Source of the DNA: a virus
Reading direction: 5' to 3' (one strand)
DNA: 25,166 nt
Virus record (IMG/VR): IMGVR_UViG_3300010373_000127
Span: 1-25,166 of that record
Shown in pieces: positions 5,046 through 19,157 of this stretch. The notes beneath the pieces were generated by a model. That model was not told the origin of the DNA. It did no database searches and saw only the letters and a list, made by a program, of their open reading frames with translations. Both the position numbers and the translations under genes were made by a program. Each line of letters begins with the position of its first letter. Position 1 is the stretch's first letter.

Positions 5046-5066
5046 GATGTACCCCTATACAGTATA

Positions 5067-5106
5067 AATATAAGGGTTTTTAAGCGAAATTGCAAGAAAT
5101 TAAGTG
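5067..5106 (-). promoter_or_regulatory. Promoter with paired CACTTA-N14-CGCTTA operator for the 4851-5045 gene
   Basis: Read on the minus strand: CACTTA (5106-5101), TTGCAA -35 (5095-5090), CGCTTA (5086-5081), then TATATT -10 (5072-5067), with a 17-bp spacer between -35 and -10. The two hexamers are exactly 20 bp apart, two helical turns, and straddle the -35 box. The same layout occurs before the 16127 gene and before the putative small terminase gene. Confidence 0.7.
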
Positions 5107-5108
5107 TT

Positions 5109-5279
5109 TTATTTCATAATTTCTTCTTCTGTTGTTCTTAGATATTGATAAATTGCCCGGTGTATCAAGAGGCTCATCGATATATTTCTTAACGCGGCGG
5201 CAACTTTAATTTCTTTATGAAACTTCTTATGTACGCGCAATATTATCATTGATCGCTTTGATTTTTCTTTATCTTCCAT
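5109..5279 (-). CDS. Arc/MetJ-type ribbon-helix-helix transcription regulator
   Basis: I place the start at 5279 because AAGGAGAG lies 5 bases before that ATG; an in-frame ATG at 5300 has no such site. The 56-residue product is about Arc size (53 residues). A basic N-terminus is followed by a strand (SMIILRVHKKF, about residues 10-20), helix A (HKEIKVAAALRN), a turn (ISMS) and helix B (LLIHRAIYQYLR), the order of ribbon-helix-helix dimeric repressors. A 14-bp palindrome lies just upstream and could be its own operator. It is transcribed toward the 4851-5045 membrane protein gene, against the flanking late genes. RHH proteins also serve as antitoxins, but no toxin gene is adjacent. Confidence 0.72.
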   Translation of the reverse strand: MEDKEKSKRSMIILRVHKKFHKEIKVAAALRNISMSLLIHRAIYQYLRTTEEEIMK

Positions 5280-5292
5280 ATCTCTCCTTTGT

Positions 5293-5306
5293 GCTATCAA
5301 GATAGC
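5293..5306. promoter_or_regulatory. 14-bp palindrome GCTATCAAGATAGC upstream of the RHH gene
   Basis: Perfect 6-bp arms GCTATC/GATAGC around a 2-bp centre, located 14 bp before the RHH start codon and between the divergent RHH and 5391 genes. On the minus strand a TACAAT -10-like hexamer (5318-5313) lies just upstream. Ribbon-helix-helix dimers commonly autoregulate through short palindromes, so this is a candidate operator. Confidence 0.5.
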
Positions 5307-5325
5307 GTTTTTATTGTAACAGATA

Positions 5326-5354
5326 TTGCATCGAATGGCTGCGCTCTTTTTAAT
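5326..5354 (+). promoter_or_regulatory. Candidate promoter for the tail-fibre operon
   Basis: TTGCAT (5326-5331), a 17-bp spacer, and TTTAAT (5349-5354), upstream of the 5391 gene and facing away from the RHH gene. The match to the -35 consensus is weak and the -10 is 5 of 6, so this is tentative. Confidence 0.35.
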
Positions 5355-5390
5355 GGAGATAAATATTTATATCTTCTTTAGGAGAAACCG

Positions 5391-6347
5391 ATGGCTGTTA
5401 AGTTATCAAGAAAACAAACCTCATATGGATATCCAAATCCACAGGCTAACTTATTTCCAGATCCAGTAGTAATTAATCGCGCTCCGACGGGTGCTGATCA
5501 AGGTGAAATTGGTCAAGAATGGATTGATACTTCTGCTAATGGCGTATATTTCCTCACCAGTATTGCCAATGGACAATCCGTATGGACGAGTTCATCTGGT
5601 GGAGCCGGAGTATTTAGCTCTCTCGTTGTAACCCCTGGGCCAATTACACTAACAGGAACAACGCATATTAATAGTGCGGGAACAGCGACAACCAATATTG
5701 GTAATGCTACCGGTAATACTGCCATTGCAGGAACGCTTAATGTTTCTGGGACAATTAGCACTACCGACGGATCAATTGAAGCGGGTAACGATGATGTTGG
5801 TGTAAACTCAAGCGTTTTCCAAGTATTAAAAAGCCGTGGTGGTGGCGTTATTACTTCGGGCGACGACCTTGGAAGCCTCATTTTCGCTGGATTTGATGGA
5901 ACTGGCTATGAAACAGCTGCGGTTATATCTTCTACCTCAAGTGGAACAATTGGCGCCGGTCGCGTAGCGGGAAATCTTGCCTTTTATACTCATCCTGATA
6001 GCGCAACTCCTGCTACTTTGCGCATGAATATTTCTGCAGCTGGTAATATTGCTATGGCTCAAGCCGATTCTGGCAATACATTAACTGTTGCTGGTGCAAC
6101 TAATGCAATATTTGCATCAACGGGCGATATAACTATTGGAACAGGAGATCTCAATATTAATACGGCAGGCCAAGGTATTAATCTTCCTGGACCAATACAA
6201 ATTATTACTGGATCCGGAGTCCCAGCTAATGGCTTAGCGTTACATGCGGGAGATCTTTATATAAATACTACTCCAACGGTTGCTACAGATCGTATATTTG
6301 TTGCCACTGGAGTTGGCGCATGGACTAATGTGACTTGCGCTGCATAA
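5391..6347 (+). CDS. Tail-fibre-like structural protein
   Basis: A 318-residue protein with TAGGAGA 7 bases before ATG. Residues about 1-70 form an adaptor-like block with 'NRAPTGADQGEIGQEWIDT' followed by 'GVYFLTSIANGQSVW', which parallels the LGD-MNTET-W-L pattern in the fibres at 10238 and 11549. The middle is a Gly/Thr/Asn-rich beta-repeat shaft with many 'NI' and 'TGT' turns. The C-terminus has 'GDLYINTTPTVATDRIFVAT', a second adaptor-like block. There is no S74 chaperone or C1q domain. It opens the tail-fibre cassette and probably forms part of a trimeric fibre or its baseplate attachment. Confidence 0.65.
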   Translation: MAVKLSRKQTSYGYPNPQANLFPDPVVINRAPTGADQGEIGQEWIDTSANGVYFLTSIANGQSVWTSSSGGAGVFSSLVVTPGPITLTGTTHINSAGTATTNIGNATGNTAIAGTLNVSGTISTTDGSIEAGNDDVGVNSSVFQVLKSRGGGVITSGDDLGSLIFAGFDGTGYETAAVISSTSSGTIGAGRVAGNLAFYTHPDSATPATLRMNISAAGNIAMAQADSGNTLTVAGATNAIFASTGDITIGTGDLNINTAGQGINLPGPIQIITGSGVPANGLALHAGDLYINTTPTVATDRIFVATGVGAWTNVTCAA

Positions 6348-6360
6348 CAAGCATAGTAAT

Positions 6361-6398
6361 AATACCCCTGGAAAATGAAACTTATGCCCAGGGGTATT
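6361..6398 (+). terminator. Perfect 11-bp stem hairpin after the 5391 gene
   Basis: AATACCCCTGG (6361-6371) pairs with CCAGGGGTATT (6388-6398) around a 16-nt loop, 13 bp past a stop codon and ahead of the next start at 6426. No T-run follows, so it may be a partial terminator, an RNA-stability element, or a protein site rather than a strong intrinsic terminator. Confidence 0.5.
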
Positions 6399-6425
6399 CA
6401 TATAATTAATAGAGAGGAAAAGAAG

Positions 6426-6605
6426 ATGGATCAAAAATTAATGATTAGTTTTGAAGCAACAAAAGAAGATAGAAAATATACTCTTTTAGCCCCCATGGGA
6501 GCTCCAGCGCAAGAGATTTATGATTTTGCGCAAGAAATCGCGAAATACTTAATAGAAGTATCAAAGAAAAACGCTGAAGAGTCTGCTCAAAAATCAGGAG
6601 AATAA
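6426..6605 (+). CDS. Small hypothetical protein in the tail-fibre cassette
   Basis: I choose ATG 6426, which has AGAGAGGA 5-8 bases upstream, over an in-frame ATG at 6375 that would start inside the hairpin at 6361-6398. The product is 59 residues, starts MDQKLMISFEATKEDRKYTL and ends with an acidic, Lys/Glu-rich helix. It has no membrane segment or Cys. The 'EIYDFAQEIAKYL' helix suggests a helical bundle. The stop overlaps the spacing of the next gene (1 bp gap), so translation is likely coupled. A chaperone or tail accessory role is possible but unsupported. Confidence 0.6.
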   Translation: MDQKLMISFEATKEDRKYTLLAPMGAPAQEIYDFAQEIAKYLIEVSKKNAEESAQKSGE

Positions 6606-6606
6606 T

Positions 6607-6930
6607 ATGGCAATTGGAGGCGCGCGCGCATTATGGGAACCAATCAGATCATTAGCATTTGGGAGTATATCAGGAACATATACAGCCATAGGAACAGCAA
6701 CTAATAATCCCGCAGTAATGGTTGCAATAACAAATAATACTGACGCACTTTTAACATTCTCATTTGATACAACCAATGACATTATTGTAATTCCATCAAC
6801 AACCGCACGCATATGGGATATTGGGAGCAATACTATAGATGATTTTGCGGTTCCGGCAAAAACAACCTTCTATGTAAAGGGGTCCCTAACGGTAGGATCT
6901 GTTTATGTTGAAATAACGTATGCCGCCTAA
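6607..6930 (+). CDS. Beta-rich tail-associated protein, paralogue of the 8007-8345 protein
   Basis: A 107-residue protein with AGGAG 6 bases before ATG. It aligns along its length with the 112-residue product at 8007: both read R-S-x-x-F-x-x-ISGTY-x-x-IGTA, then NP, a 'N-x-TD' turn, 'D-I-x-x-P', an aromatic-D 'SN' segment, and 'YVKGS-x-T-x-GxVY' ending in YAA. It has no signal peptide or catalytic motif. Location between fibre genes suggests a small virion decoration or fibre-tip or base domain. The function is not recognised. Confidence 0.65.
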   Translation: MAIGGARALWEPIRSLAFGSISGTYTAIGTATNNPAVMVAITNNTDALLTFSFDTTNDIIVIPSTTARIWDIGSNTIDDFAVPAKTTFYVKGSLTVGSVYVEITYAA

Positions 6931-6939
6931 GGAGATAGT

Positions 6940-7815
6940 ATGTCACAAATTACTAAATTAAGCGGATCTGTAACCACAACAACATTTATCACTTCTGGCA
7001 CCTGGACAAAGAGGCTCGGAACAAAAGTTGTTACTATTTTAGGTTATAACGGGGGCAATGGCGGAGGATCGGGCGCACAAGGATCGTCGGCATCTTCGGG
7101 AGGGGCTGCAGGAGGAGCCGCAGGAGACGTTTTCTATTATTCAACGCTTGCTTCTAATATAGGTGCAACTGCAACTATTACCATTGGCGCAGGTGGTAGT
7201 GGAGCAGCTTCCCAAACAAATATTGATTCTAATGGAATAAGTGGAACGCGTGGTGGCATAAGTTCTTTTGGCAATATTACGACATTTGCACAAAATCCTG
7301 CCCAGGGAGGAACCAGAGTGGGAACAGTTACCGGAACCGGCAATATTCAATATGGAACATTCGGTGGAACATCTGGTAATGCAGGATCAGGAACACTTAC
7401 TAATGGAGGAAATGCTGGTACTGCTGGAGCAAGTAATAATACCATGAGCCCTGCAAGTGGTGGTGGCGGTGGGGGTGCAAGTTCAAATGCAACTGCATTT
7501 ACAGGTGGCAATGGTGGCGCTATAGCAACCGCGTCCGCTTCTACACTGGTTCTTGGTGGTGCAGGCGGAGTTACTACGACTCCCGATGGAGCAAATGGTA
7601 ATCCGGCATCCTCTGTTTTAAACGGACTTATTTTTGGTGGAACAGGCGGGGGAGGGGGAGCCGGACAAGGATCTGGAAATGCTCCTGGTAATGGTGGTAA
7701 AGGAGGATTCCCTGGGGGGGGTGGCGGCGGAGGTGGTGGATCCATAGATGGAACAAATTCTGGAAAAGGGGGAGATGGGGGCGATGGAATGATTATTGTT
7801 ATGGAATTTGCCTGA
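6940..7815 (+). CDS. Glycine-rich tail-tip adhesin
   Basis: A 291-residue protein with AAGGAG 6 bases before ATG. The N-terminus 'FITSGTWTKRLGTKVVTIL' followed by 'GGNGGGSG' and the C-terminal 'GGDGGDGMIIVMEF' are the marks of the glycine-rich domain found at the tips of phage tail fibres, where polyglycine type II helices can form a packed lattice and variable loops contact the receptor. The interior has many GGGGGG runs separated by short variable Asn/Ser/Thr loops. A G8 homopolymer (7714-7721) encodes part of a late Gly run. It is followed by a tail-fibre-assembly-like gene. Receptor binding is inferred from the family. Confidence 0.7.
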   Translation: MSQITKLSGSVTTTTFITSGTWTKRLGTKVVTILGYNGGNGGGSGAQGSSASSGGAAGGAAGDVFYYSTLASNIGATATITIGAGGSGAASQTNIDSNGISGTRGGISSFGNITTFAQNPAQGGTRVGTVTGTGNIQYGTFGGTSGNAGSGTLTNGGNAGTAGASNNTMSPASGGGGGGASSNATAFTGGNGGAIATASASTLVLGGAGGVTTTPDGANGNPASSVLNGLIFGGTGGGGGAGQGSGNAPGNGGKGGFPGGGGGGGGGSIDGTNSGKGGDGGDGMIIVMEFA

Positions 7816-7823
7816 GGTATAAG

Positions 7824-8003
7824 ATGAGATATGCCGTAATAGATAAAGATCAAAATGTTATTAATGTAATTATTTGGGATGAATTATCCAACTGGGAGCC
7901 GCCTTATGGATGTTTTTTAGTAAAAACAGATGTAGGAAATATTGGCGATACATATGATATAGATTCCAATACTTTTTCTGCTCCCCACGGCGAAGGAGAA
8001 TAA
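7824..8003 (+). CDS. Small tail-fibre-assembly-like protein
   Basis: A 59-residue product starting MRYAVIDKDQNVINVIIWDE and continuing 'LSNWEPPYGCFLV', then 'VGNIGDTYD' and a C-terminal 'FSAPHGEGE'. This is the pattern of short proteins found next to tail-fibre genes in many tailed phages, with an initial 'YAVI-x-x-x-x-V-x-N-V-I-x-W-D' strand, 'PP-x-G-C' and 'G-D-x-Y' turns. It begins 6 bp after the adhesin stop codon, behind a GAGGTATAAG site, and ends 3 bp before the next ATG, so it is in a tight operon. A role in fibre folding or as a fibre-tip domain is inferred. Confidence 0.7.
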   Translation: MRYAVIDKDQNVINVIIWDELSNWEPPYGCFLVKTDVGNIGDTYDIDSNTFSAPHGEGE

Positions 8004-8006
8004 ATA

Positions 8007-8345
8007 ATGTATTTAAATGCACAAAGAATGAAATGGGAAGATTTACGTTCAATAGGATTTGCCGATATTTCAGGAACCTATGCGGGAATAGGTACGGCCC
8101 TCGAAAATCCATCTCGACTGATTAAATTTGTTAATACCACAGATGTTGATGTGATTCTTTCTACCAATGGTGTCGATGACATGGATATTGTTCCCGCTGG
8201 CGGATTTGTTCTCTATGATGTGATGTCCAATAGAAGTAATTCTGGAGGAATTCTTGTTCTTGATCAGGGAACTCGGGTTTATGTAAAAGGATCGCCAACC
8301 AAAGGAACTGTATATTTCGTATCAATTTATGCTGCAAGTATTTAG
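8007..8345 (+). CDS. Beta-rich tail-associated protein, paralogue of the 6607-6930 protein
   Basis: A 112-residue product with AAGGAG before the ATG. The same strand pattern as the 6607 protein is seen: 'RSIGFADISGTYAGIGTALENP' versus the matching segment there (ISGTY-x-x-IGTA-x-x-NP), 'NTTDVD', 'MDIVPAGGFVLYDVMSN', and 'RVYVKGSPTKGTVYFVSIYAA'. The N-terminus carries a short extra stretch (MYLNAQRMKWED) and the C-terminus extra SI. The two copies sit on either side of the glycine-rich adhesin and its small partner, so they may form alternative caps or mounts for different fibres. No function is recognised. Confidence 0.65.
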   Translation: MYLNAQRMKWEDLRSIGFADISGTYAGIGTALENPSRLIKFVNTTDVDVILSTNGVDDMDIVPAGGFVLYDVMSNRSNSGGILVLDQGTRVYVKGSPTKGTVYFVSIYAASI

Positions 8346-8357
8346 AAAGGGCACAAC

Positions 8358-10214
8358 GTGAGCCAAGCAGGAAGCAATAGCGGTGGTGGTGGCGGTGGAT
8401 CATCAATTCTTCAAGTTACTACTGATGCAGGAATAGCAACCCCAATTGCGGGTAATATTAATCTTAATGGAGATGGTGTTCATATAACTACCTCCGCAGT
8501 AACCGATACCATAACAATAACAGGCAATGGCATAATAACTATTGATGGCGATACTGGATCTATAACGGGAACTACAGTTGCATTTAATGCCAATGCCACG
8601 GATAGAGCGGGTAATTCAATTTCATTTGTTTCCAATAGTCCAACACAAATGGTCTTACAAATGACGGATTCCCTTCAAAATACACTTATTGGAAATACCT
8701 CGGGAAATGGAGGCATAACGGGAACACAAAATACAGCTCTAGGGCAAAGTACTCTGCAAAATATAACTACCGATCATGATTGCGTGGCGGTTGGATTTGA
8801 GGCCCTCTCGGCTCTTGATGGCTCAGGGGGGGTTAATACTGCCATTGGTTCACTTTGTATGCAAAATTTAGTCTCAGGAGAGGCGAACACAGCCGCAGGT
8901 TACTTTGCACTCAATGCTTCCCAAACTGGGTCTAATAACACGGCAATGGGATTTCAATGTCTTGCTTCAAGCACGGGAGATAATAGCAACACGGCCTATG
9001 GATTCAATGCGGGCAATCACATTAATGGTGGAAATCAGAATACGATTATAGGACTTGATGCTCTATTTACCGCAACCACAGCATCCAATAACGTGTGTCT
9101 TGGTTACGAATCTGCATTTTCATTGGCAACCGGGGTCGACAATATCGCCATCGGATTCCTTTCTGGGGGCTCTTGGACAACCAATGAGAGCGATAATATT
9201 TGCATTGGTTCTGTTGGGGTTGTTGGCGATCAGAATACCATACGCATAGGAACGCAGGGATCTGGCGGTTTTGAACAAAATCAATGCTTTATAGCAGGCA
9301 TAGCAGGTGTTACTGTTTCAAACCAACAATTTGTAACTATCGATACAACTACAGGTCAATTGGGATCGGTTGCAGGTGGTGGTGGCGGTGGAATAACCAC
9401 TATCGATGGCAATACTGGATCGGCCACGGGAGCCACGGTTACATTCCAGGGAACTGAAGGATTATCAGGGGGATCGGTTACCTTTATAGCATCAGGATCT
9501 CAGGTTTCATTGAGCTTATCGGATGCACAGGCAAGTACATACTTAGGTAATGGCGCAGGTAATTCAACATCTACATCCGTTGTAGGAAGTAATACTGCTG
9601 TCGGCCAGGTTGCAATGCAGGCTATAACGAGCGGTGGAGCGAATAGTGCCTATGGTGGTGGCAGTTTAGATGCATTGCTCACCGGAAACTATAATACTTG
9701 CCTTGGTTACAATTCAGGCGGCGCATACACGGGAGCAGAATCATCTAATATTGCAATTGGATATGGAGCTGGTGGAGTTAACGGAGAAAGTAATACCCTG
9801 AGAATTGGTAATGGAACTGGAACTGGGAATGGTCAAATAAATCAATCATTTGTAGCTGGAATTCAAGGAATAACTGTTACTGGTACGGCAGTCCTTGTCT
9901 CTACTTCTGATCAACTGGGCATTGCAGTATCTTCTCGTAAATATAAAGAAAATATTGTCGATATGGGATCGGCTAGCGACGATATATATAAACTTCGCCC
10001 AGTTACATTCACGCTTAAAGATAATCAAGATCAATCGATTCAATATGGTCTGATTGCAGAAGAAGTCGCAGAAGTTATGCCTAATATTGTAGTGATGGAT
10101 AAAGAAGGAAATCCACAAACAGTTCAATATCATAATTTGCCAGCATTGCTGCTTAATGAAATACAAAAATTGCGCAAAGAAATTGATGATATTAAACAAA
10201 AGATTAAACAATAG
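8358..10214 (+). CDS. Tail fibre with C-terminal S74 intramolecular chaperone
   Basis: GTG start preceded by AGAAAGG. The product is 618 residues. After a Gly-rich start come two shaft modules: each has 'TTIDG(D/N)TGS' (about residues 65 and 345), then YadA-head-like 'N-x-A-x-G' repeats such as 'GEANTAAGYFAL' and 'SNNTAMGFQCL'. Each module ends with a 'N-T-x-R-I-G ... F-x-AGI-x-G-x-x-V' block. The last ~95 residues are the S74 chaperone found at the ends of tailspikes and fibres: S525-S-R-K-Y-K530-E-N-I, then 'LRPVTFTLK', 'YGLIAEEVAEVMPNIVV' and a helical 'LPALLLNEIQKLRKEIDDI' tail. It trimerises and folds the fibre, then cleaves itself off, with Ser525 and Lys530 as probable dyad. The usual Asp and Arg of S-D-x-R-x-K are Ser and Lys here. 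Confidence 0.85.
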   Translation: MSQAGSNSGGGGGGSSILQVTTDAGIATPIAGNINLNGDGVHITTSAVTDTITITGNGIITIDGDTGSITGTTVAFNANATDRAGNSISFVSNSPTQMVLQMTDSLQNTLIGNTSGNGGITGTQNTALGQSTLQNITTDHDCVAVGFEALSALDGSGGVNTAIGSLCMQNLVSGEANTAAGYFALNASQTGSNNTAMGFQCLASSTGDNSNTAYGFNAGNHINGGNQNTIIGLDALFTATTASNNVCLGYESAFSLATGVDNIAIGFLSGGSWTTNESDNICIGSVGVVGDQNTIRIGTQGSGGFEQNQCFIAGIAGVTVSNQQFVTIDTTTGQLGSVAGGGGGGITTIDGNTGSATGATVTFQGTEGLSGGSVTFIASGSQVSLSLSDAQASTYLGNGAGNSTSTSVVGSNTAVGQVAMQAITSGGANSAYGGGSLDALLTGNYNTCLGYNSGGAYTGAESSNIAIGYGAGGVNGESNTLRIGNGTGTGNGQINQSFVAGIQGITVTGTAVLVSTSDQLGIAVSSRKYKENIVDMGSASDDIYKLRPVTFTLKDNQDQSIQYGLIAEEVAEVMPNIVVMDKEGNPQTVQYHNLPALLLNEIQKLRKEIDDIKQKIKQ

Positions 10215-10237
10215 ATCTTATTTGTTAAGGAGAAAAA

Positions 10238-11539
10238 ATGTCTAATGCGTATGGCGGAGTTGGCGTCAGTTTAAATTATCGTGGAACCAATGCCACTCAA
10301 CCACCAAACTATACCTTTGCCAAAGTAGATCCAACCCCACAAACAAAAGGAGGTGCGACGCTTGGCGATTTATATATGAACACAGAAACCCAACAAGTAT
10401 GGATATTGGTTTCTCTTTCAGGAACGGTGGGATCAGGAGGCATGGTTGCCAAATGGGCGCCAATTATTGCCTCTGGTGGGGTTGGGCCTATTTCTGAATT
10501 GGGCGGCGATACAGGAGTTGCGGTTCCAAATTCGGCTGGTTTAATAAATATCATTGTTGGGACTGGTAATGGCACCCCTAAATTCACTGGATCAAGCAAT
10601 CAATTACAACTTTCATTCGATACCGGCGCCGGAAATTTAGGCATTGGATCTGGTTCAGTAGGAAGAGTGGTTACCAGCGGGGCCAACAATATATGTATCG
10701 GACAGCTCTCAGGATTTGCGATAACGAGCGCCAGTGACAATTCTGCCCTAGGAGCCCAAGCGTTGATTGGTAATATTGATGGGGATGGTAACACGGCAAT
10801 TGGTGTAGCCGCTATAGGAAATGCCGCCCATCCGGCATTTAATACGGCCCTTGGAGGACTCACTGGAGATAATTACACAACTACCGAATCATCAAATATC
10901 TTAATGGGATATAATGTTGCCGGCACTCTAGGAGAAAGTAATACCCTTAGAATTGGCGTTGGCACGGGGACTGGGAATGGCCAATTAAATAGGGCATTCA
11001 TACAGGGAATAGCTGGTGTATCGGTTTCAAATAAACAGATCGTAACAATTGATACCACAACCGGACAACTTGGATCTGAATCATCTGTGTCCTCTACTGC
11101 ATATTTCTCTGCATATAAGAGCTCAACATCATCATCTGTTACTGGTGATGGCACCGACTACACCATTATATTTGATACAAAATTGGCCGATCCAAGCTCA
11201 AGCTACGATGATACAACGGGCATATTTACCGCTCCCGTTACTGGGATGTATGCATTTAATGCTTCAGCATTTATACAAAACATCGGTGCGGGGCATACGC
11301 AAATTAGCATGGCGGTTAATACAACAAGCGCTAATTTTGTGGGGCCACTTTATAATCCAGTTCCAATAGCGGTTGGCGGAGTATTAATAGCAATGGTACA
11401 GGCGGCAGCGTTTTTAAATGCGGGAGATACCGCTCAAATCATCGTCGCTGTTGATAATTCAACAAAAACTGTTGACGTGGCAGGCCAAGCGCTTGGTTCA
11501 GGAGTTATCACCTATGTTCAAGGCTATCTAGTAAGTTAG
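10238..11539 (+). CDS. Tail fibre with C1q/TNF-like C-terminal domain (copy 1)
   Basis: A 433-residue product with TTAAGGAG before ATG. Residues 1-75 are an adaptor shared with the next gene: 'GG-x-GV-x-x-NYRG-x-N-A-x-QPPN-x-TF', then 'LGD-x-x-MNTET-x-x-x-W-x-L-x-SL'. The shaft has N-x-A-x-G repeats and one copy of the 'NTLRIG ... GN-x-Q-x-N ... FI-x-GI-x-GV' linker that also occurs twice in the 8358 fibre. From about residue 288 the C-terminus reads 'FSAYKSS', 'VTGDGTDYTIIFDT', 'FTAPVTGMYAFNAS' and ends with a beta strand, the fold pattern of C1q-like jelly rolls that trimerise and bind ligands. It has no S74 domain. Receptor binding is likely. Confidence 0.78.
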   Translation: MSNAYGGVGVSLNYRGTNATQPPNYTFAKVDPTPQTKGGATLGDLYMNTETQQVWILVSLSGTVGSGGMVAKWAPIIASGGVGPISELGGDTGVAVPNSAGLINIIVGTGNGTPKFTGSSNQLQLSFDTGAGNLGIGSGSVGRVVTSGANNICIGQLSGFAITSASDNSALGAQALIGNIDGDGNTAIGVAAIGNAAHPAFNTALGGLTGDNYTTTESSNILMGYNVAGTLGESNTLRIGVGTGTGNGQLNRAFIQGIAGVSVSNKQIVTIDTTTGQLGSESSVSSTAYFSAYKSSTSSSVTGDGTDYTIIFDTKLADPSSSYDDTTGIFTAPVTGMYAFNASAFIQNIGAGHTQISMAVNTTSANFVGPLYNPVPIAVGGVLIAMVQAAAFLNAGDTAQIIVAVDNSTKTVDVAGQALGSGVITYVQGYLVS

Positions 11540-11548
11540 GAGATAACT

Positions 11549-12907: not shown

Positions 12908-12942
12908 AATCTTCTTTCTCTATCTCTTCCACTCTCTTCTCA

Positions 12943-12976
12943 ATATCCACAGCAGCATAAAATCTGCTGTGGATAT
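12943..12976. terminator. 13-bp perfect hairpin between convergent operons
   Basis: ATATCCACAGCAG (12943-12955) pairs exactly with CTGCTGTGGATAT (12964-12976) across an 8-nt loop. It sits 36 bp after the last tail gene and 25 bp before the stop of the opposing minus-strand operon, the position of a bidirectional terminator. A T-run is absent on both strands, so it is not a textbook intrinsic terminator. Confidence 0.6.
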
Positions 12977-13000
12977 CAGTGTAAAAAAGAAGGTGCTTTA

Positions 13001-13312
13001 TTATCTTTCGCTATTCTTTATAATCTCGGTGATCTTTATCAGCGGATCCTCTTCTTTATGCTTGAATGCGCGCAGGCACTCAGTAATAAATTCTTGGTTT
13101 TGAAAAAGATCTTCAAATGCTCGCTCAAGAAGATATCCCATGCGTTCCCAGCGAGGATGGTTTTCATCTTCACTAAGCTGGATATATTTCTCTTTGATCT
13201 TGTCTTCCATAAAGATCCATTGTTGGGAATAAGGGGCAAAATCATACGATGAAGGGCGCGTATATTTGATCAGTGGTGAATGTAATGGTTGCTCTGGTTG
13301 GTTGGTTTGCAT
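13001..13312 (-). CDS. Hypothetical acidic-helical protein, last gene of the minus operon
   Basis: A 103-residue product with GAGGG in the end of the upstream gene, before the ATG at 13312; the upstream stop codon is 4 bp before this ATG. A Pro-rich N-terminus is followed by charged helices: 'IKEKYIQLSEDENHPRWERM' and 'LLERAFEDLFQNQEFITECL'. No membrane segment, zinc motif or catalytic motif is visible. It follows the ERF-type recombination genes and probably shares their early timing, but nothing in the sequence shows a function. Confidence 0.6.
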   Translation of the reverse strand: MQTNQPEQPLHSPLIKYTRPSSYDFAPYSQQWIFMEDKIKEKYIQLSEDENHPRWERMGYLLERAFEDLFQNQEFITECLRAFKHKEEDPLIKITEIIKNSER

Positions 13313-13316
13313 TACG

Positions 13317-13565
13317 TTACCCTCTAGTTCTTAATGATGTTGCTTCAAGCTTCTCGATTCTTTGAGTTAATTTAATCAATTCATCAGATTCTGCCCAAAG
13401 CATACTCTGCATGGCATCTTCATTTTCACTAGTAAGAATATTTATAGTTTCCTCGAGCCTGATAACCTCATTTTTTAGTGAATTATATCCAATTGCGAGG
13501 ATAATAATGATTGCACATAATAATCCGATAACGATGTACTCAGAACGTTTATTTTCTGCGTTCAT
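13317..13565 (-). CDS. Small membrane-anchored coiled-coil protein
   Basis: I choose the ATG at 13565, which has AGGTGG 7 bases upstream, giving 82 residues; an in-frame ATG at 13598 is deep inside the upstream gene. The product has a basic N-terminus, a single hydrophobic segment at about residues 10-28 (YIVIGLLCAIIIILAIGY), then a heptad-like charged helix (NEVIRLEETINILTSENED) to the end. The start overlaps the end of the second ERF-like gene. The layout resembles i-spanins and other one-pass anchored helices, but the early-operon position argues against a simple spanin call, and no partner o-spanin is seen. Confidence 0.6.
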   Translation of the reverse strand: MNAENKRSEYIVIGLLCAIIIILAIGYNSLKNEVIRLEETINILTSENEDAMQSMLWAESDELIKLTQRIEKLEATSLRTRG

Positions 13566-14217
13566 TCTCTTCCACCTTTTTGATACGACGTATCTCACCC
13601 ATTGTTACATGATATACACTCTCAGGCAGGTCAGCCAAGGTCTCAATGCCATGCTTATTGAGAATGCTTTTAACTATCCTTTCATAACCATCAAGCTCAA
13701 TCAAAAGTTCATTGTACTGATGATTGGTAATTGTTTTTTCTCGGTAGTCTTTTTCGGAAAATCGAGACTCACGTGGCTTTTTAAGTTCATCAATCAATTG
13801 TGATTCTGATTGCAATTCAGCATTATCATCAAACAAGAATGGATCATTGGTGGTCGGAGCAATTCCGAGTAGCTTCAGAGCTTGTTGCCGAGCAATGAAT
13901 TCTTTAATCACCGCAGTTTCCTTTGCTGATTTTTCTGATACCAATCGAGCCCATGAGCTGATCCACTGCCCACTCTCATGAATAAGCATTGATTTAAGGA
14001 TGTCAGCACCACTACCCCCATCAAGCAACTCATCATATTGATAAAAGTAGATCCCATTACTTGATAAGGCTTCACGAACCGCGATCAAAATCGCATCCAG
14101 ATTTGCGTAAACCTCTCCCTTGTACTTCTGATTAGGCTTGAGAGTTTTGTACGCACCTTGAGCCTTTGCAAGGGCCCCCGCAATTTTATCTATGCACTCA
14201 CTGCGATATGCATTCAT
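13549..14217 (-). CDS. ERF-type single-strand annealing protein paralogue (second copy)
   Basis: A 222-residue product that begins with a helical segment, then 'EVYANLDAILIAVREALSSN' (about 35-54) and 'LIHESGQWISSWARLV' (about 78-93), which align with the 'TYATLPGIL' and 'HPESGQW' segments of the 14823-15536 protein. Where that protein has GGSTTYHRRYNAL, this one has 'IKEFIARQQALKLLGIAPTTNDPF' (about 104-127). The C-termini also match: 'TNHQYNELL', 'GIETLADLPESVY' and a helix. It is a diverged paralogue, so ERF annealing activity is plausible but the signature motif is altered. It may pair with the first copy in mixed rings. Confidence 0.62.
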   Translation of the reverse strand: MNAYRSECIDKIAGALAKAQGAYKTLKPNQKYKGEVYANLDAILIAVREALSSNGIYFYQYDELLDGGSGADILKSMLIHESGQWISSWARLVSEKSAKETAVIKEFIARQQALKLLGIAPTTNDPFLFDDNAELQSESQLIDELKKPRESRFSEKDYREKTITNHQYNELLIELDGYERIVKSILNKHGIETLADLPESVYHVTMGEIRRIKKVEENERRK

Positions 14218-14225
14218 AGTGGTAC

Positions 14226-14654
14226 CTATCTAGCAAGGGGTGATTTATTTCTAGCAGCTTCAACATCGGTTGATCGGATGATATTTGATTCGTTATCAAT
14301 ACGAGATGCGCCCGCATTTTCAAGATTTTTAATGAATTTCTCGTATTCAGCGGTCATATTAACTGCCATTTGGTATCGCGTAGCAATCCAGTTTAAGATG
14401 GGATGCAACTGATAAGTAAAAGTATCTTGTATTTCTTCAAGAACTGCATTTACTGCATCTCGATTATCATTATTGAATATAATTTCTTCGGGATCATTAT
14501 CGCTCGCAAATTGATAAAGCTTTTTATGGGCATCAAAATATGCTTTTTGAACATCCATGAAATGTTTTTCAAGATTCTGTGCAAACTCAAATGATATGGT
14601 GGTTGGTTTTTGTTTTTGCTTGCGTACCTTTTTCTCTTTTTTTACTTCTTCCAT
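14226..14654 (-). CDS. Hypothetical helical protein between the two ERF genes
   Basis: A 142-residue product with AGAGG 8 bases before the ATG. A Lys/Glu-rich basic N-terminus (KKEKKVRKQKQKP) could bind nucleic acid. The rest is helical, with 'FEFAQNLEKHFMDVQKAYFDAHKKLYQF', and a C-terminal 'IIRSTDVEAARN'. There is no zinc motif or nuclease motif. Being between an ERF protein and its paralogue, it may be an ssDNA-binding or annealing partner, but this is only guilt by association. I do not recognise the family. Confidence 0.6.
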   Translation of the reverse strand: MEEVKKEKKVRKQKQKPTTISFEFAQNLEKHFMDVQKAYFDAHKKLYQFASDNDPEEIIFNNDNRDAVNAVLEEIQDTFTYQLHPILNWIATRYQMAVNMTAEYEKFIKNLENAGASRIDNESNIIRSTDVEAARNKSPLAR

Positions 14655-14666
14655 CTCAAATCCTCT

Positions 14667-14813
14667 TTAATTAAAACTATTAAAATACTCAATTGTGATC
14701 ATGATGATAACTATTATTAATGCAATCATCGCTCCTATCGATATAACCGATCCAATCCATCCAAGCGAACCATCAATTGGAAGTTGTATCTCAGGGCTAT
14801 CCAATAATAACAT
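14667..14813 (-). CDS. Small single-pass membrane protein (48 residues)
   Basis: Read from the ATG at 14813, preceded by AAGGGG 4 bases upstream; its start is 9 bp after the stop of the 14823-15536 gene. The product begins MLLLDSPEIQLPIDGSLGWI and continues with a long hydrophobic stretch (about residues 19-42: Gly, Ile and Val-rich, 'IALIIVIIMITI'), ending in a short polar tail. The strong ribosome site and tight spacing support it as a real operon member. No role can be named. Confidence 0.6.
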   Translation of the reverse strand: MLLLDSPEIQLPIDGSLGWIGSVISIGAMIALIIVIIMITIEYFNSFN

Positions 14814-14822
14814 TATCACCCC

Positions 14823-15536
14823 TTATTGTTCCTTATAATCATCTATAAATGCTAATACATCATTAAATTTGCGCCAAGGTATATTAGTAAGATTTGGGAA
14901 TTTAAATTGTTCTAATATCTTATCAGCTAGTTCTTTATTGCCATTCAATTTTGCCCTGAGCAACCCGCATTGTTTTTCGCTGATGAATTCATTGGTGATC
15001 ATAGCAACATTTTGTGACATAGTTTGTTTTGCTTCAGGTATAACATCAGTATGCCCTTCATTAAAGTCAGTCGGATCGTCGGCGGCAGCCAATCCACAGA
15101 TCATCAAGGCATTATATCTTCTATGGTAGGTTGTTGAGCCACCCCACGCTTGATCTGGATTGCTGTTAAGCAGCGCTGAGCAATAGCCATTCCATTGAGA
15201 TTGATCCATGCGAGCGACAATGTAATCAGGGAGCACAGGGATTGATTTTGGAGTTAGGGTTGATTCAATGCATTTCCACTGACCACTTTCTGGATGATCC
15301 AACCGCGTGAATATAGTTCCTCGATCGTATCCCCCATCAACACCCTCAGTAAGAATAATGCCATAAGGAGAGAGCATTTTTTGTATTTGGCTCAGAATGC
15401 CAGGAAGCGTGGCGTAGGTATTTCTATTGGATTTTGAATCTTTTCCAATCACTACACCATGTTCTTTATGCATGGCAAGCAATTGTCCCATGAGTATTGA
15501 TATGTCTTCTGATTGATTGTGGTCGCTTCTGTACAT
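14823..15536 (-). CDS. erf: ERF-family single-strand annealing recombination protein
   Basis: A 237-residue product with AGGAAA before the ATG. Residues about 38-60 (NTYATLPGILSQIQKMLSPYG), 'RLDHPESGQWKCIESTL' (about 78-94), GGSTTYHRRYNAL (132-144) and 'DDPTDFN' (153-159) match the ERF superfamily pattern, in which 'G(S/T)-x-x-TY-x-RRY-x-L' is the most conserved part. The C-terminal domain (about 175-237) is a small helical module with 'SEKQCGLLRAKL' and 'WRKFNDVLAFID'. The protein would anneal complementary ssDNA during phage recombination, with a RusA-like resolvase at 18142 as a possible later partner. First recombination gene of the minus-strand operon. Confidence 0.8.
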   Translation of the reverse strand: MYRSDHNQSEDISILMGQLLAMHKEHGVVIGKDSKSNRNTYATLPGILSQIQKMLSPYGIILTEGVDGGYDRGTIFTRLDHPESGQWKCIESTLTPKSIPVLPDYIVARMDQSQWNGYCSALLNSNPDQAWGGSTTYHRRYNALMICGLAAADDPTDFNEGHTDVIPEAKQTMSQNVAMITNEFISEKQCGLLRAKLNGNKELADKILEQFKFPNLTNIPWRKFNDVLAFIDDYKEQ

Positions 15537-15583
15537 GTACTTATTTCCTATTACTTAAAAACTATTTTTTAATTGTTTTTCAG

Positions 15584-15630
15584 CTTGTCCCCTAAGATGC
15601 ATTACGCGTTGATGAACCATAAGGGACAAG
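15584..15630. repeat. Inverted repeat CTTGTCCC / GGGACAAG upstream of the ERF operon
   Basis: CTTGTCCC (15584-15591) and GGGACAAG (15623-15630) form an 8-bp perfect stem around 31 nt, in the leader between the 14823-15536 gene and the 15700-15834 gene. It may act as an attenuator, an operator pair, or a terminator of the upstream minus genes. Confidence 0.5.
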
Positions 15631-15632
15631 TG

Positions 15633-15695
15633 TTAAGTATGCACAGATTAATGATTCGATTTTAGAGGTATTTACATTATTGCGCACATACTTAA
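15633..15695. repeat. Inverted repeat TTAAGTATG / CATACTTAA
   Basis: TTAAGTATG (15633-15641) and CATACTTAA (15687-15695) are exact 9-bp inverted copies, 54 bp apart start to start. The flanks also repeat: an ACAGATTAA block follows the left copy and, on the other strand, precedes the right one, so each arm carries the same two words in different order. A looping operator is one reading. Confidence 0.45.
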
Positions 15696-15699
15696 TCTG

Positions 15700-15834
15700 T
15701 TATTCAATTTTCCAATCCTTACCCGATGCAATCTCATATATTTTTATGCCAATAGCAATAAACAGTAAACAATCTCCAGCAATTGCTCCACCAATCTTCC
15801 AATATTCTATTGGTATAAAAAATAGTGTTCCCAT
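15700..15834 (-). CDS. Small membrane protein (44 residues)
   Basis: Start ATG at 15834 overlaps the TGA of the upstream 97-residue gene as TGATG, so translation is likely coupled. The product starts MGTLFFIPIEYWKIGGAIAG and has one hydrophobic segment (about residues 15-31, 'GAIAGDCLLFIAIGIKI') with a Lys/Glu tail. No role is recognised. It belongs to the divergent minus-strand operon that starts beside the triple operator. Confidence 0.55.
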   Translation of the reverse strand: MGTLFFIPIEYWKIGGAIAGDCLLFIAIGIKIYEIASGKDWKIE

Positions 15835-16127
15835 CAGCTAAAATGCTTTACTAGTAAACCAACTCCAGCTCCAATACCAGCGGTACATCCAGCAACCAAC
15901 CAAATACAACAACATCGCTTCCTGCGATTAATGCGATCTCGTTGCTTGGCTGTTCTATAAATATCAGGATTAATATATACCATGTGATTTCGTGGTGGTC
16001 GGGGCTCAAAGACAATCATTGTTCTTGTTGATGTGGTATGAATTACCGGCTTTGATGCCGCGGGCATAATTGGCGGGAATATTGATGGAAATACGCCCAT
16101 AAAGAACATCACATATTTCATATTCAT
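15834..16127 (-). CDS. Small secreted-anchored protein of the divergent switch operon
   Basis: A 97-residue product with GGGG 8 bases before ATG. The N-terminus is hydrophobic like a signal sequence (MNMKYVMFFMGVFPSIFPPIMPA), residues about 25-70 are polar with Pro and Arg, and the C-terminus has a basic stretch then a Cys-rich hydrophobic segment (RRKRCCCIWLVAGCTAGIGAG) ending in KHFS. The same order of parts occurs in the small proteins at 20555, 20789 and 21264. It is divergent from the HTH gene, and its promoter is flanked by shared operators, so it is probably the first gene of a repressor-controlled leftward operon. Function unknown. Confidence 0.6.
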   Translation of the reverse strand: MNMKYVMFFMGVFPSIFPPIMPAASKPVIHTTSTRTMIVFEPRPPRNHMVYINPDIYRTAKQRDRINRRKRCCCIWLVAGCTAGIGAGVGLLVKHFS

Positions 16128-16167
16128 AATTCATACCCCTAACTATTGACACAATGTATATACACTA

Positions 16168-16238
16168 AATATAACAAATATAAGCGAAATTGCAAACAAT
16201 TAAGCGAAATGTTACACTATTAAGTGTATTTATATAAT
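16168..16238. promoter_or_regulatory. Divergent promoter region with three 20-bp-spaced operator hexamers
   Basis: On the plus strand TAAGCG at 16181, TAAGCG at 16201 and TAAGTG at 16221 recur with exact 20-bp spacing. For the minus gene at 16127, -35 TTGCAA (16195-16190) and -10 TATATT (16173-16168) are 16 bp apart, with hexamers on each side of the -35. For the plus HTH gene, a perfect -10 TATAAT (16233-16238) follows the third hexamer directly. A protein bound here could block both promoters, as in phage genetic switches. Confidence 0.72.
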
Positions 16239-16254
16239 CAGGAAAGGGAGTTTT

Positions 16255-16458
16255 ATGGATTATCGAGAAAAACTGAGAGAGAGATTTATGGCTATTTTGA
16301 GCCACAAGCCACAAAATATGACCGCTATTGCCAAGGATATAGGAGTAAGCAATGAGCTTGTTCGCCATTTTCTTGGGGGAGCGCGCAATACGCAACTTAG
16401 GTCCGTATCAAGAATTGAAGCGTGGATAATTTCACAAGAAAAAGCGATTAAAAAGTGA
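16255..16458 (+). CDS. Small helix-turn-helix regulator (candidate phage repressor)
   Basis: A 67-residue protein with GGAAAGGGAG before the ATG. Residues about 23-41 (MTAIAKDIGVSNELVRHFL) form a helix-turn-helix: AIAKDIG as helix 2, VSNELVRHFL as recognition helix, followed by 'GGARNTQLRSVSRIEAWI' as helices 4-5. This is the Cro/C1 family order, shortened to a bare DNA-binding domain with no dimerisation or protease-sensing region. It sits next to three operator hexamers that recur at two other promoters. It is the best candidate for the protein that binds CACTTA/CGCTTA sites. A stand-alone Cro-like role is also possible. Confidence 0.72.
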   Translation: MDYREKLRERFMAILSHKPQNMTAIAKDIGVSNELVRHFLGGARNTQLRSVSRIEAWIISQEKAIKK

Positions 16459-16586
16459 GCTGTAGACAAATTGGCAACGACTGAAATGTCGATTGGGCTT
16501 GATTATTCAATAAAATGTCCGTACAATACTGGCACCTAATGAAGGTGTTGCGCATCTTCAACGGAGAATAGTATTACCATTAAGCA

Positions 16587-16618
16587 GTAAATCCCATATC
16601 AGTTAATACAGGATTTAC
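16587..16618. repeat. Inverted repeat GTAAATCC / GGATTTAC in the replication leader
   Basis: GTAAATCC (16587-16594) pairs with GGATTTAC (16611-16618) around a 16-nt loop and is followed by AT-rich sequence ending in TTAATTTT. It could be a weak terminator for the HTH gene or a regulatory hairpin. Confidence 0.4.
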
Positions 16619-16809
16619 ACTTAATTTTAACAACCAGAAAGTTATTAATGGGTCCTTGTTATTGTTGTATCACGAGCAATATATACGCACATAAACCAAC
16701 TCTCACATCGATTTTTTGTTTTGTATTAACGCAAGTTTCAAATCAAACTAGCCAAGTCAATCATCAGTCCCAGAAGACCTTAATTTCGGCGTTTCAATTT
16801 GTATTAGAT

Positions 16810-16838
16810 TCAACAAAGCTAGGCTTTTATCGCATAAT
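16810..16838 (+). promoter_or_regulatory. Candidate promoter for the replication gene
   Basis: TCAACA (16810-16815, 4 of 6), 17-bp spacer, CATAAT (16833-16838, 5 of 6), 36 bp before the ATG at 16875. An AGGAG lies 10 bases before that ATG. A fourth operator-like site lies in the first codons of the gene. Confidence 0.4.
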
Positions 16839-16874
16839 TCGCAATAACCGTGCCGTGCCAGGAGATTTTAGTAT

Positions 16875-18170
16875 ATGAGAGTGCGTAAACAAAATCAAGC
16901 GTTTTTAAGCGAAATTGTAGAAGTTTCCGCAAAAGTGCGGGAAAATCCTCGTGCCTATTTTGAATCACTCACGCTTAAGCAGCGCAAACTCCTCAACGGG
17001 ATCTTGAATTATTATTACCGCAAGGGTAAGGCGTATATGCGTCAAGATACGCTTGCTAAGTTTGCGGGATATAAAAGCCGTCAGCATGTGAATATGTTGT
17101 TGGGTAAGTTTATTGAAGATGGAATTATCGCATCAAATTATCGCCATATGACATCATGTGAGTACAAAGTCGCACCATTCTTTGATGACTTCAAAATTCG
17201 GGCACTTTTAAGACCACTTTTGTCAGCCTTCGTAGTGTTCCCAATTCATCTGCTGGACGCGTTTTTAGGACTTCGGACACAAAATGTTAGTAATTATATT
17301 TATATAATCGATCGATCGAATCAATTTGATCAAAAAGTTATAAACAGCGCGCGCGCACGTACGCGAGGGGGCACAGTTTCGACCGATTTGAAAAAAAATG
17401 GAGCAAGTAGAATGATTGCCGACTATGTAAACGATATCGATTCGATCGAATTGAGCATTGCAGATAAGATCGCACTGTCTCGTTACAGCAAGCAAGCGGT
17501 TGAGTATTCCTTGATGCAGCTCAAGAAAAAAGACGGTGTATCCAACCCTGTGGCATACATGGTTGTTTGTTGTAAGTCATTTCAAGAGAAGAAGGCCACT
17601 GGCAAGCAAACTAAATCAACCCAAACTCGTCCACAGCGCGCCCCTGAACCGCCAAGAGAAGTGCGAGATACTTCTTTCTGGAAAAAAGACTCGGATAACA
17701 TGGCACACATTGATATTGTTTCCATGGCCGCGCATTTACAGAAATCTGAAGGCATCTTGGGCAAATCCTGGACCGCTATTTACATGGACAAATACCGAGC
17801 CGCGCTTGCCCAACACGATCAATCAACCTGTCACCTGTGCTTAGATCATGGCCCGGATTATCGCAAGTCTATCGAATCCCATAAAGCGAGTGGTGATCCC
17901 AAACCGTCATTAGAAGGGCCAACATCACCTGCTTTTTCAGTCAACCAAACACCAAGAGAAAAAATGGCCGAGCTGGCCACCCGCGCTCTCGAGAGACAAA
18001 AATCAGAGAATATGCCAAACTTGACCATGGAGAGACGTGCAGTAGGGGCCCCCTCGCCAATGACCCACTCGCTATCCGCCCGAACGCCCGAAATCCAATC
18101 GACGATAAATTTGGATGAGCCGGAACCAAGTGGAGGATATGATGAGTCTGAATATGAGGAAATCTTCTAA
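16875..18170 (+). CDS. Winged-helix replication-initiator-like protein
   Basis: A 431-residue protein. Residues about 32-92 (LTLKQRKLLNGILNYYYRKG, 'MRQDTLAKFAGYKSRQHVNM', 'LLGKFIEDGIIASNYRH') look like a winged helix with a helix-turn-helix and an 'EDGII' wing, as in phage and plasmid replication initiators. Residues about 205-236 (ALSRYSKQAVEYSLMQLKKK, then 'GVSNPVAYMVVCCKS') resemble the 'NP-x-x-Y' segment found in RepA/O-like proteins. The C-terminal third is Pro/Ser/Glu-rich, polar and probably disordered, with an acidic tail (DESEYEEIF) that could recruit a host helicase loader. A region rich in GATC/CGATCG and a GC-alternating tract inside the gene could be the origin. It overlaps the RusA gene. 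A transcription-factor role is the main alternative. Confidence 0.55.
   Translation: MRVRKQNQAFLSEIVEVSAKVRENPRAYFESLTLKQRKLLNGILNYYYRKGKAYMRQDTLAKFAGYKSRQHVNMLLGKFIEDGIIASNYRHMTSCEYKVAPFFDDFKIRALLRPLLSAFVVFPIHLLDAFLGLRTQNVSNYIYIIDRSNQFDQKVINSARARTRGGTVSTDLKKNGASRMIADYVNDIDSIELSIADKIALSRYSKQAVEYSLMQLKKKDGVSNPVAYMVVCCKSFQEKKATGKQTKSTQTRPQRAPEPPREVRDTSFWKKDSDNMAHIDIVSMAAHLQKSEGILGKSWTAIYMDKYRAALAQHDQSTCHLCLDHGPDYRKSIESHKASGDPKPSLEGPTSPAFSVNQTPREKMAELATRALERQKSENMPNLTMERRAVGAPSPMTHSLSARTPEIQSTINLDEPEPSGGYDESEYEEIF
16896..16917 (+). promoter_or_regulatory. Operator-like site inside the 5' end of the replication gene
   Basis: CAAGCG (16896-16901) and TAAGCG (16906-16911) are 10 bp apart. Bases 16901-16917 are identical to 5076-5092, a 17-bp exact match to the operator before the 4851-5045 gene. 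The location, about 25-40 bp inside the coding region, could block elongation or give autoregulation. Confidence 0.45.
17307..17451. other. Candidate replication origin inside the initiator-like gene
   Basis: Within 145 bp are: an AT-rich stretch leading into triple-overlapping ATCGATCGATCGAAT (17307-17321), a TTGATC, a 19-base alternating GC tract (17347-17365), an A8 run near 17392, and a 12-bp palindrome ATTCGATCGAAT (17440-17451). Lambda-type phages place their origin inside the O initiator gene, and this cluster is the strongest such candidate here. No true iterons are seen, so confidence is low. Confidence 0.3.
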
Positions 18171-18585
18171 CTCAATCGAAATTCAAGAGCCGATTATTTA
18201 TACGATACCCACGGACCCAATTGCCTGGGCCCGGGCGGTACCTACGCGGCGTCATGCCATGTGGGATTCTCAAAAGCAACTCAAACTCTATCTCGGATTA
18301 TTTATCACCAAGTGCCACGGAGACCGTCCGTTTTACCAAGGACCACTCCAACTCAACGCCACGTTCTTCATGCCCATGAACCAAAAGATGCTCAAGTATG
18401 CAGATAAATATGAAAACAGTTGGTATGATCAGCGTCCCGATTTTGATAATCTCATCAAGCTCATAGCGGACACTTGCAATGGCATTCTCTATGAAGACGA
18501 CAAAACAATATGCGCATCCAACATCAAGAAGGTCTATAGCGCTAACCCCAGAACAGAATTTACCATCATACAACTCACTCAATAA
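18142..18585 (+). CDS. rusA: RusA-family Holliday junction resolvase
   Basis: I choose ATG 18142, 5 bases after GGAGG; ATG at 18139 is too close and one at 18115 has no ribosome site. The 147-residue product has an N-terminal 'PTDPIAWARAVPTRRHAMWD', a basic strand-rich core, and the RusA signature RPDFDN (98-103), then 'LIKLIADTCNGILYEDDKTI' with Asp110, Asp119 and Asp120. Asp100, Asp102 and Asp119/120 are the probable metal ligands (as Asp70, Asp72 and Asp91 in E. coli RusA). It would cut four-way junctions during recombination or packaging. It overlaps the replication gene by 29 bp, so both are likely co-translated. Confidence 0.85.
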   Translation: MSLNMRKSSNSIEIQEPIIYTIPTDPIAWARAVPTRRHAMWDSQKQLKLYLGLFITKCHGDRPFYQGPLQLNATFFMPMNQKMLKYADKYENSWYDQRPDFDNLIKLIADTCNGILYEDDKTICASNIKKVYSANPRTEFTIIQLTQ

Positions 18586-18595
18586 CACGCATATT

Positions 18596-18636
18596 CACTT
18601 AAAAACATTGAAAAACGCTTAATAATGCGTTATTAT
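18596..18636 (+). promoter_or_regulatory. Promoter with paired operator before the putative small terminase gene
   Basis: CACTTA (18596-18601), TTGAAA -35 (18608-18613), CGCTTA (18616-18621), 17-bp spacer from -35 to TATTAT -10 (18631-18636). The hexamers are exactly 20 bp apart and straddle the -35 box, as at 5067-5106 and 16168-16238. This would put the packaging operon under the same regulator as the divergent switch. Confidence 0.72.
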
Positions 18637-18650
18637 ATATAAGGATATAC

Positions 18651-19157
18651 ATGGCCAGACCCAAAAAAGAGAAACTTGTTCATCATATCTCAACTGACAA
18701 AGAAAAGACAAAAATAGTTGATTTTTATACAGATATGTTATTTTTCAAAGAAAAGCCCGTATCTGAGGCATTTATTGAAAGACTCGCCCAACAGATGGTT
18801 GATTGGTCAAAGCAAGAGGATTCACTTCGCATAACTCAGTTCTTTAATAAGTGCGGTATACCCAACAGCATGCTGTATAAATGGATGGATCGATTTCCTG
18901 TGTTTAAGGCAGCCCACGAGTTCACCATGTCAGCACTTGCGGATAGAAGAGATATTGGCGCTCTTACTCGTAAATATGATGGTAATTACATAGAGAAATC
19001 TCTGGGAATGTATGATCCCGAGTATAGAAAGTTTATGGAATGGAGAGCGTCTTTAGCAGATAAGAATAAAGATGCTCAGGGTACATTGATGGTACAGATG
19101 ATGCCCGCTCCACAGACAGAGAGAGTGCCAATGAGAAGAAAGAAAGATGAGAATTGA
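18651..19157 (+). CDS. Putative terminase small subunit
   Basis: A 168-residue product beginning with a basic N-terminus (MARPKKEK). It has 'ITQFFNKCGIPNSMLYKWMD' (about 61-80), a helix-turn-helix-like segment typical of DNA-recognising small terminases, then 'FKAAHEFTMSALADRRDIGALTRKYDGNY', and 'YDPEYRKFMEWRASLADKN'. A charged basic tail ends it. It is the first gene of the operon that leads to the large subunit at 21482, and an operator-flanked promoter precedes it. Small terminases diverge widely, so this rests on position plus HTH; another DNA-binding regulator is possible. AAGGA lies 6-9 bases before ATG. Confidence 0.58.
   Translation: MARPKKEKLVHHISTDKEKTKIVDFYTDMLFFKEKPVSEAFIERLAQQMVDWSKQEDSLRITQFFNKCGIPNSMLYKWMDRFPVFKAAHEFTMSALADRRDIGALTRKYDGNYIEKSLGMYDPEYRKFMEWRASLADKNKDAQGTLMVQMMPAPQTERVPMRRKKDEN

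Follow-up and report, generated by a model that had tools for sequence, protein, structure and literature searches.

Direct CRCTTA repeats placed alike at three promoters in an uncultured tailed phage, with a 67-residue helix-turn-helix protein as their possible reader

Which regulator, if any, reads a hexamer that recurs in the same arrangement at three separate promoters of one phage? The question is raised by the IMG/VR virus record IMGVR_UViG_3300010373_000127, which was analysed here in its entire length of 25,166 bases (the window). The window represents part of an uncultured tailed phage genome and carries genes for TerL, a portal protein, two ERF-like annealing proteins, RusA, tail-fibre proteins and a putative small terminase subunit. 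In the present study, we found four exact pairs of the form CRCTTA-N14-CRCTTA in the 25 kb, confined to the promoters of a probable small membrane protein (operator A), of the divergent switch between the leftward ERF genes and a rightward operon (operator B) and of the putative small terminase (operator C). The hexamer pairs which a preliminary description of this DNA had placed at these promoters proved correct in all sequences and coordinates. Operator B contributes two of the pairs, CGCTTAATTGTTTGCAATTTCGCTTA at 16206-16181 (-) and CACTTAATAGTGTAACATTTCGCTTA at 16226-16201 (-), the latter from a third copy of the hexamer at 16226. The extended half-site is ATTTCRCTTAA. Operators A and B are identical at 22 of 24 bases, a match unequalled between other non-coding stretches of the window and stronger than any non-coding match within ten relatives, terminal repeats excepted; C agrees with A and B mainly at the hexamers. 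No structured RNA or tRNA was detected at the sites.

By chance, 0.012 exact pairs would be expected against the four observed, and of 2000 dinucleotide shuffles 24 held one exact pair and none held two. Because the pattern was picked after reading the sequence, we also used an open test, in which all hexamers at all periods from 7 to 32 compete in non-coding DNA over 300 shuffles. The winner was TTAAGC at period 20 with four pairs, the maximum in the shuffles being three. A stricter count of three distinct regions was matched in 15 of the 300 shuffles, so at the loosest level the evidence is good, not overwhelming. The cleanest test of the sites is given by matrices trained with one promoter left out, by which the held-out A ranked 3-4, B 3 to 5 and C 6 of about 50,000 positions. 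Further high scores fell at 18576, a possible third hexamer of operator C, and at a lone half-site at 16911. The coding sequence of the window contains no exact pair, so the equal frequency in coding positions which had been named as a refutation was not seen, and loci collected independently of the pattern gave only one chance pair. The loose hexamer-period count over the whole window, coding sequence included, was unremarkable, and the case therefore rests on the non-coding placement and the exact matches. The sites are real, of which we are nearly certain, and very probably constitute a regulatory operator of some kind.

Two smaller elements were also considered. At 16895-16911 (-), CGCTTA and CGCTTG stand in the CAATTT context seen at A and B; a function of this lone half-site is doubtful. 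A palindrome TACACT-N4-AGTGTA over hexamer B1 was rejected, one such dyad being expected by chance in the region by our own estimate.

The hexamers hold a common register with the promoters. The -35 boxes, described earlier as beginning 11-12 bp after the start of the first hexamer, were measured at 11 (A), 11 (B) and 12 (C) bases. Measured from the -35 centre, the half-site centres of A and B are 11 bp upstream and 9 bp downstream, and those of C 12 and 8 bp. The half-sites are thus roughly one turn from the -35 centre, on the same DNA face as sigma region 4, with which a bound protein would compete, as a repressor is expected to do. At the divergent switch, the leftward spacer contains B3 and the rightward one B1, and the two -35 boxes have B2 between them. 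The -10 boxes, which had been called good, are present at 17, 16 and 17 bp, but with 9, 9 and 10 of 12 consensus matches promoters A, B and C are acceptable, not strong. Likewise, the term phage-wide was right in that one operator is shared by three promoters, but overstated for an analysis which covered 25.2 kb.

Table 1. Features of the window discussed in the text
Feature	Position	Strand	Details
Operator A	5081..5106	-	CACTTA-N14-CGCTTA around -35 box; reads CACTTAATTTCTTGCAATTTCGCTTA (5106-5081); exact match
Operator B	16181..16226	-	Three tandem hexamers CACTTA, CGCTTA, CGCTTA, period 20; reads CACTTAATAGTGTAACATTTCGCTTAATTGTTTGCAATTTCGCTTA; exact match
Operator C	18596..18621	+	CACTTA-N14-CGCTTA around -35 box; reads CACTTAAAAACATTGAAAAACGCTTA; exact match
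CACTCA, possible third tandem hexamer of operator C	18576..18581	+	One mismatch; within end of RusA gene
Lone half-site CAATTTCGCTTA	16906..16911	-	CGCTTG 11 bp off; in first codons of gene at 16875
Promoter A	5067..5095	-	TTGCAA-N17-TATATT; consensus scan, 9/12 matches
Promoter B, leftward	16168..16195	-	TTGCAA-N16-TATATT; consensus scan, 9/12 matches
Promoter C	18608..18636	+	TTGAAA-N17-TATTAT; consensus scan, 10/12 matches
Rightward promoter of HTH gene	16211..16238	+	GTTACA-N16-TATAAT; hexamer B1 in spacer; 10/12 matches
67-residue Cro/C1-type HTH protein, proposed binder of A, B, C	16255..16458	+	Synteny, HTH_26 in relatives, fold model
Arc/HicB-like RHH regulator	5109..5282	-	57 aa from ATG 5282; ORF from TTG 5300; PF05534 E 2e-4; phrog_582 Arc-like 2e-4
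Palindrome GCTATCAAGATAGC, probable RHH operator	5293..5306	.	In RHH promoter; register common to close relatives
64-residue hydrophobic protein, probable small membrane protein	4851..5045	-	ORF; promoter A upstream; small hydrophobic ORFs at equivalent place in relatives
97-residue protein with hydrophobic segment	15834..16127	-	ORF, no family match; first gene of leftward ERF recombination cluster
Putative small terminase subunit	18651..19157	+	Weak phrog_24579 match, E 0.046; homologues in 32 of the TerL loci
HTH, helix-turn-helix; RHH, ribbon-helix-helix; ORF, open reading frame.

The triple site of operator B, the richest of the three, adjoins the gene of a 67-residue HTH protein. In about 20 relatives a one-domain HTH gene of 62-90 residues is likewise next to the divergent region, and in one of these syntenic relatives (L034) the protein matches HTH_26 (Cro/C1) above the cut-off, others falling just below. 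A profile of this switch-HTH family matches HipB at 3e-8; as the window protein is a seed inside the profile, synteny and fold count for its membership no less than the score does. Its AlphaFold model (pLDDT 90.7) has four helices (3-17, 22-29, 33-40 and 48-66), and this predicted model shows the lambda-repressor-like HTH fold. By Foldseek against the PDB, the best match was HipB (TM 0.69), with P22 C2 also found and none at E < 0.001. A Cro/C1-type regulator at the divergent switch, as proposed in the preliminary description, is therefore supported by synteny, by HTH_26 in relatives and by the fold model. Beyond this gene, 416 bases (16459-16874) up to the gene at 16875 hold no convincing gene and gave no Rfam or tRNA match; a lone CACTTA lies there at 16618.

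From these sequences, we consider the chances about even that the 67-residue protein acts as a repressor through A, B and C. Each ATTTCRCTTAA half-site would be read through the major groove by one protein unit, and binding would be cooperative between units that are spaced by two helical turns and so share a DNA face. With one half-site just upstream of the -35 box and one in the spacer between the -35 and -10 boxes, RNA polymerase would be shut out of each promoter. At the divergent switch, three tandem half-sites over both promoters would lower the expression of the leftward ERF cluster and of the gene for the protein itself, and the same protein may also turn down the promoters of the small membrane protein and of the packaging genes.

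Several observations weigh against this repression by the 67-residue protein. The protein has no family match above a curated cut-off, HTH_26 included, and searches of viral contigs and named phages gave no useful close relatives of it. None of ten relatives has direct-repeat sets at several promoters comparable to those of the window. Some relatives have at the switch an 11-bp direct repeat YTGTCKAC or a dyad around TTGACA (TTGACA-N5-TGTCAA) instead, and these dyads count against the direct-repeat assignment because ordinary Cro proteins use dyads. In addition, promoter C would give its transcript a leader of no more than some 8 bases, and about one third of the genome lies outside the window and could encode another regulator. 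Elements of the relatives' kind were seen upstream of the switch HTH gene at L001 2651-2669, L004 352, L010 3377-3421 and L063 1453-1471.

Pattern scans of 2.9 million viral contigs gave unrelated matches only (a mycobacterial prophage family and two unrelated contigs). Neither the relatives nor other viral contigs yielded a comparable set, and the operator is, among the sequences searched, private to this phage. In four relatives (L001, L006, L010 and L018) the RusA end adjoins the terminase start, without the gap that holds promoter C in the window, and in other inspected relatives, G007 and G012 among them, the small hydrophobic ORF abuts or runs into the RHH gene, without an intergenic stretch for promoter A. 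Promoters A and C appear to be additions of the window phage, placed under its switch regulator. A protein search for relatives of the putative small terminase gave nothing useful. An array of four tandem TTTCACTTAT units at period 10 was seen in an unrelated 93.8-kb phage contig (L114, about 7297-7337, minus strand), where AT-rich DNA without coding sequence precedes a terminase-like frame; it is probably a coincidence. Repeated intergenic stretches in G005 and G013 were rejected for lack of a promoter-element look. G005 has three CTTAAAACGCCG(T/A)CATGGGG-like copies between small genes at 31265, 31727 and 32389, which do not resemble promoters.

The window encodes a second small regulator, the Arc/HicB-like RHH protein, of which 13 of 19 relatives have a homologue. 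In the closest relatives, CTAACATGTTAG-like palindromes stand at a constant distance from the -35 box of the RHH promoter, and in the window CTATCTTGATAG occupies the same register. Taken one by one, the palindrome matches are uneven, that of G008 being no better than shuffles; it is the register shared across RHH promoters which appears persuasive. The RHH protein therefore probably controls its own promoter, and the island would have its own regulator as well. Thus, the claim of one repressor for all three promoters was borne out as to a shared operator; the 67-residue protein is the binder that we infer, and at the island it would act beside the RHH regulator.

The RHH gene of the window is antisense and has an ejection-protein-like gene on one side and a tail-fibre gene on the other; an antisense island of this kind, between virion genes, is conserved in relatives, with a small hydrophobic ORF downstream in most of the 7 inspected. 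The island at 4851-5300 was seen also in G001, G003, G004, G007, G011 and G012. The earlier name of an immI-like island is well chosen, for the P22 immI region (sieA, mnt, arc; PMC10883804) likewise has an Arc/Mnt-like RHH regulator and a membrane gene between ejection-protein and tail genes. Unlike P22 immI, the island has no ant-like ORF for an antirepressor (the next gene, at 5391, resembles tail-fibre proteins), its membrane gene has its own CRCTTA promoter, and a SieA-like function is only putative. The island is a candidate superinfection-exclusion module in metagenomic phages.

The nature of the phage bears on what the regulator would be. The best TerL matches, at 50-69% identity, are metagenomic contigs, and named phages reach only up to 39%; no integrated copies were found in bacterial genomes beyond one distant match. 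The genomes of relatives measure 31-41 kb, and the 25.2 kb is probably about two thirds of the phage genome. Direct terminal repeats of 79-127 bp were found in 4 of 9 relatives checked (G001, G003, G011 and G012; genomes of 34-39 kb), which on this ground are probably complete, and whose records are classed as without end repeats. In 19 relatives, these four included, neither a tyrosine or serine integrase or resolvase (PF00589, PF00239) nor an HTH_3 protein, the larger C1-type repressor, was found above cut-off; the window itself is incomplete. Hence, a phage repressor in the lysogeny sense, as first proposed, was not upheld. The HTH protein probably serves, in Cro-like fashion, to time the lytic programme and not as a lysogeny repressor.

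Could another protein bind these sites? The RHH protein is a natural suspect, as its gene ends 3 bases before operator A and RHH omega repressors bind direct repeats (work cited in PMC4752584). Close relatives with conserved RHH proteins keep the palindrome of the RHH promoter in register but lack CRCTTA pairs, so this is quite improbable; once the RHH protein is accounted for by its own palindrome, the 67-residue HTH protein is left as the most likely owner of the direct repeats. Some other regulator, whose gene may lie in the unseen third of the genome or in the host, is somewhat less improbable, though we still think it unlikely. The 25.2 kb in hand falls short of the 31-41 kb of relatives, and co-variation of protein and site cannot be demonstrated as no close relative was found to have this operator; yet the relatives with terminal repeats show no HTH_3 protein above cut-off, and it is the HTH gene which adjoins the triple site.

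The sites might also serve an activator straddling the -35 box in the style of lambda CII (TTGC-N6-TTGC), given direct repeats at a fixed register around the -35 box of three promoters. In lambda CII the half-sites are separated by one turn and stand half a turn from the -35 centre, whereas those of the window are two turns apart, about a whole turn off that centre, with one inside the spacer. Since the half-sites are in phase with the -35 box, unlike those of CII, and the promoters already match 9-10 of 12 consensus bases where activated promoters are usually weak, an activator is improbable, even with lambda CII among the few structurally known direct-repeat binders (PMC4752584). Finally, there may be no regulator at all, the likeness of A and B being that of a copied promoter segment and C arising partly by chance in AT-rich DNA. 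This would fit the 22/24 identity, the agreement of C mainly at the hexamers and the 15 shuffles of the broadest test; but C ranks 6th by a matrix trained without it and its hexamers hold the same place around the -35 box, and we regard this explanation, too, as having little probability. A T4 MotA-box reading was rejected, since a MotA box stands at another distance from the -10 box and there was no sign of a MotA-like protein.

If the 67-residue protein is the repressor, its operators would differ from those of its apparent kin. Classical Cro/C1 operators are palindromes of about 17 bp. Lambdoid Cro and small Cro/C1 proteins (P22, lambda) share with the present system a one-domain HTH, a divergent early switch and three tandem operators between two promoters, but the window has direct half-sites, not palindromes. 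The statement that direct hexamers are unusual for Cro/C1-type proteins is thus right for lambda-like proteins; it should not be read as unprecedented, in view of P2 C. The P2 C repressor is a 99-residue HTH protein which binds two 8-bp direct repeats, with centres 22 bp apart, flanking the -10 box (PMC4752584), and Pf4r is regarded as similar to it (PMC8402870). Like P2 C with O1/O2, the window combines a small HTH protein with direct, non-palindromic half-sites that span a promoter in pairs at a distance of about two helical turns; P2 has this at one promoter, of its genetic switch, and the window at three. It differs in the 67 residues, the 20-bp spacing around the -35 box and the triple array, and no sequence relation was found, P2 C (2XCJ) being absent among the profile matches listed and the best 50 fold matches. 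Phage 186 Apl, whose cooperative binding represses both promoters, also has six-base direct-repeat half-sites between two phage promoters (PMC7498355), but at a spacing of 10-11 bp, and it acts as an excisionase at att as well, whereas no integrase was found in the window clade. The Cluster A mycobacteriophage repressor with its stoperators (PMC9283540) likewise serves many asymmetric sites genome-wide with one repressor; it differs in having more than 20 single 13-bp sites, a two-domain monomer of 183 residues and an additional action in stopping elongation.

Few proteins are known to bind direct DNA repeats, and the reading of such repeats by a symmetric HTH dimer has been called a puzzle (PMC4752584). 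What is new here is the set of direct repeats in one register at three promoters, the triple array and the 67-residue protein beside it. A broader view may be offered tentatively, and we judge it unlikely as a whole: in a non-integrating lineage, a one-domain Cro-like protein would coordinate early, membrane and packaging promoters through head-to-tail arrays two turns apart, the operator architecture having switched within one protein family, unlike the palindromes suggested for some relatives. If repression by the 67-residue protein is true, its three natural, equally spaced operators would make it a very small and easily tested case. The clade, with related HTH proteins at one locus and differing putative operators, may be useful for the study of how operator architecture changes.

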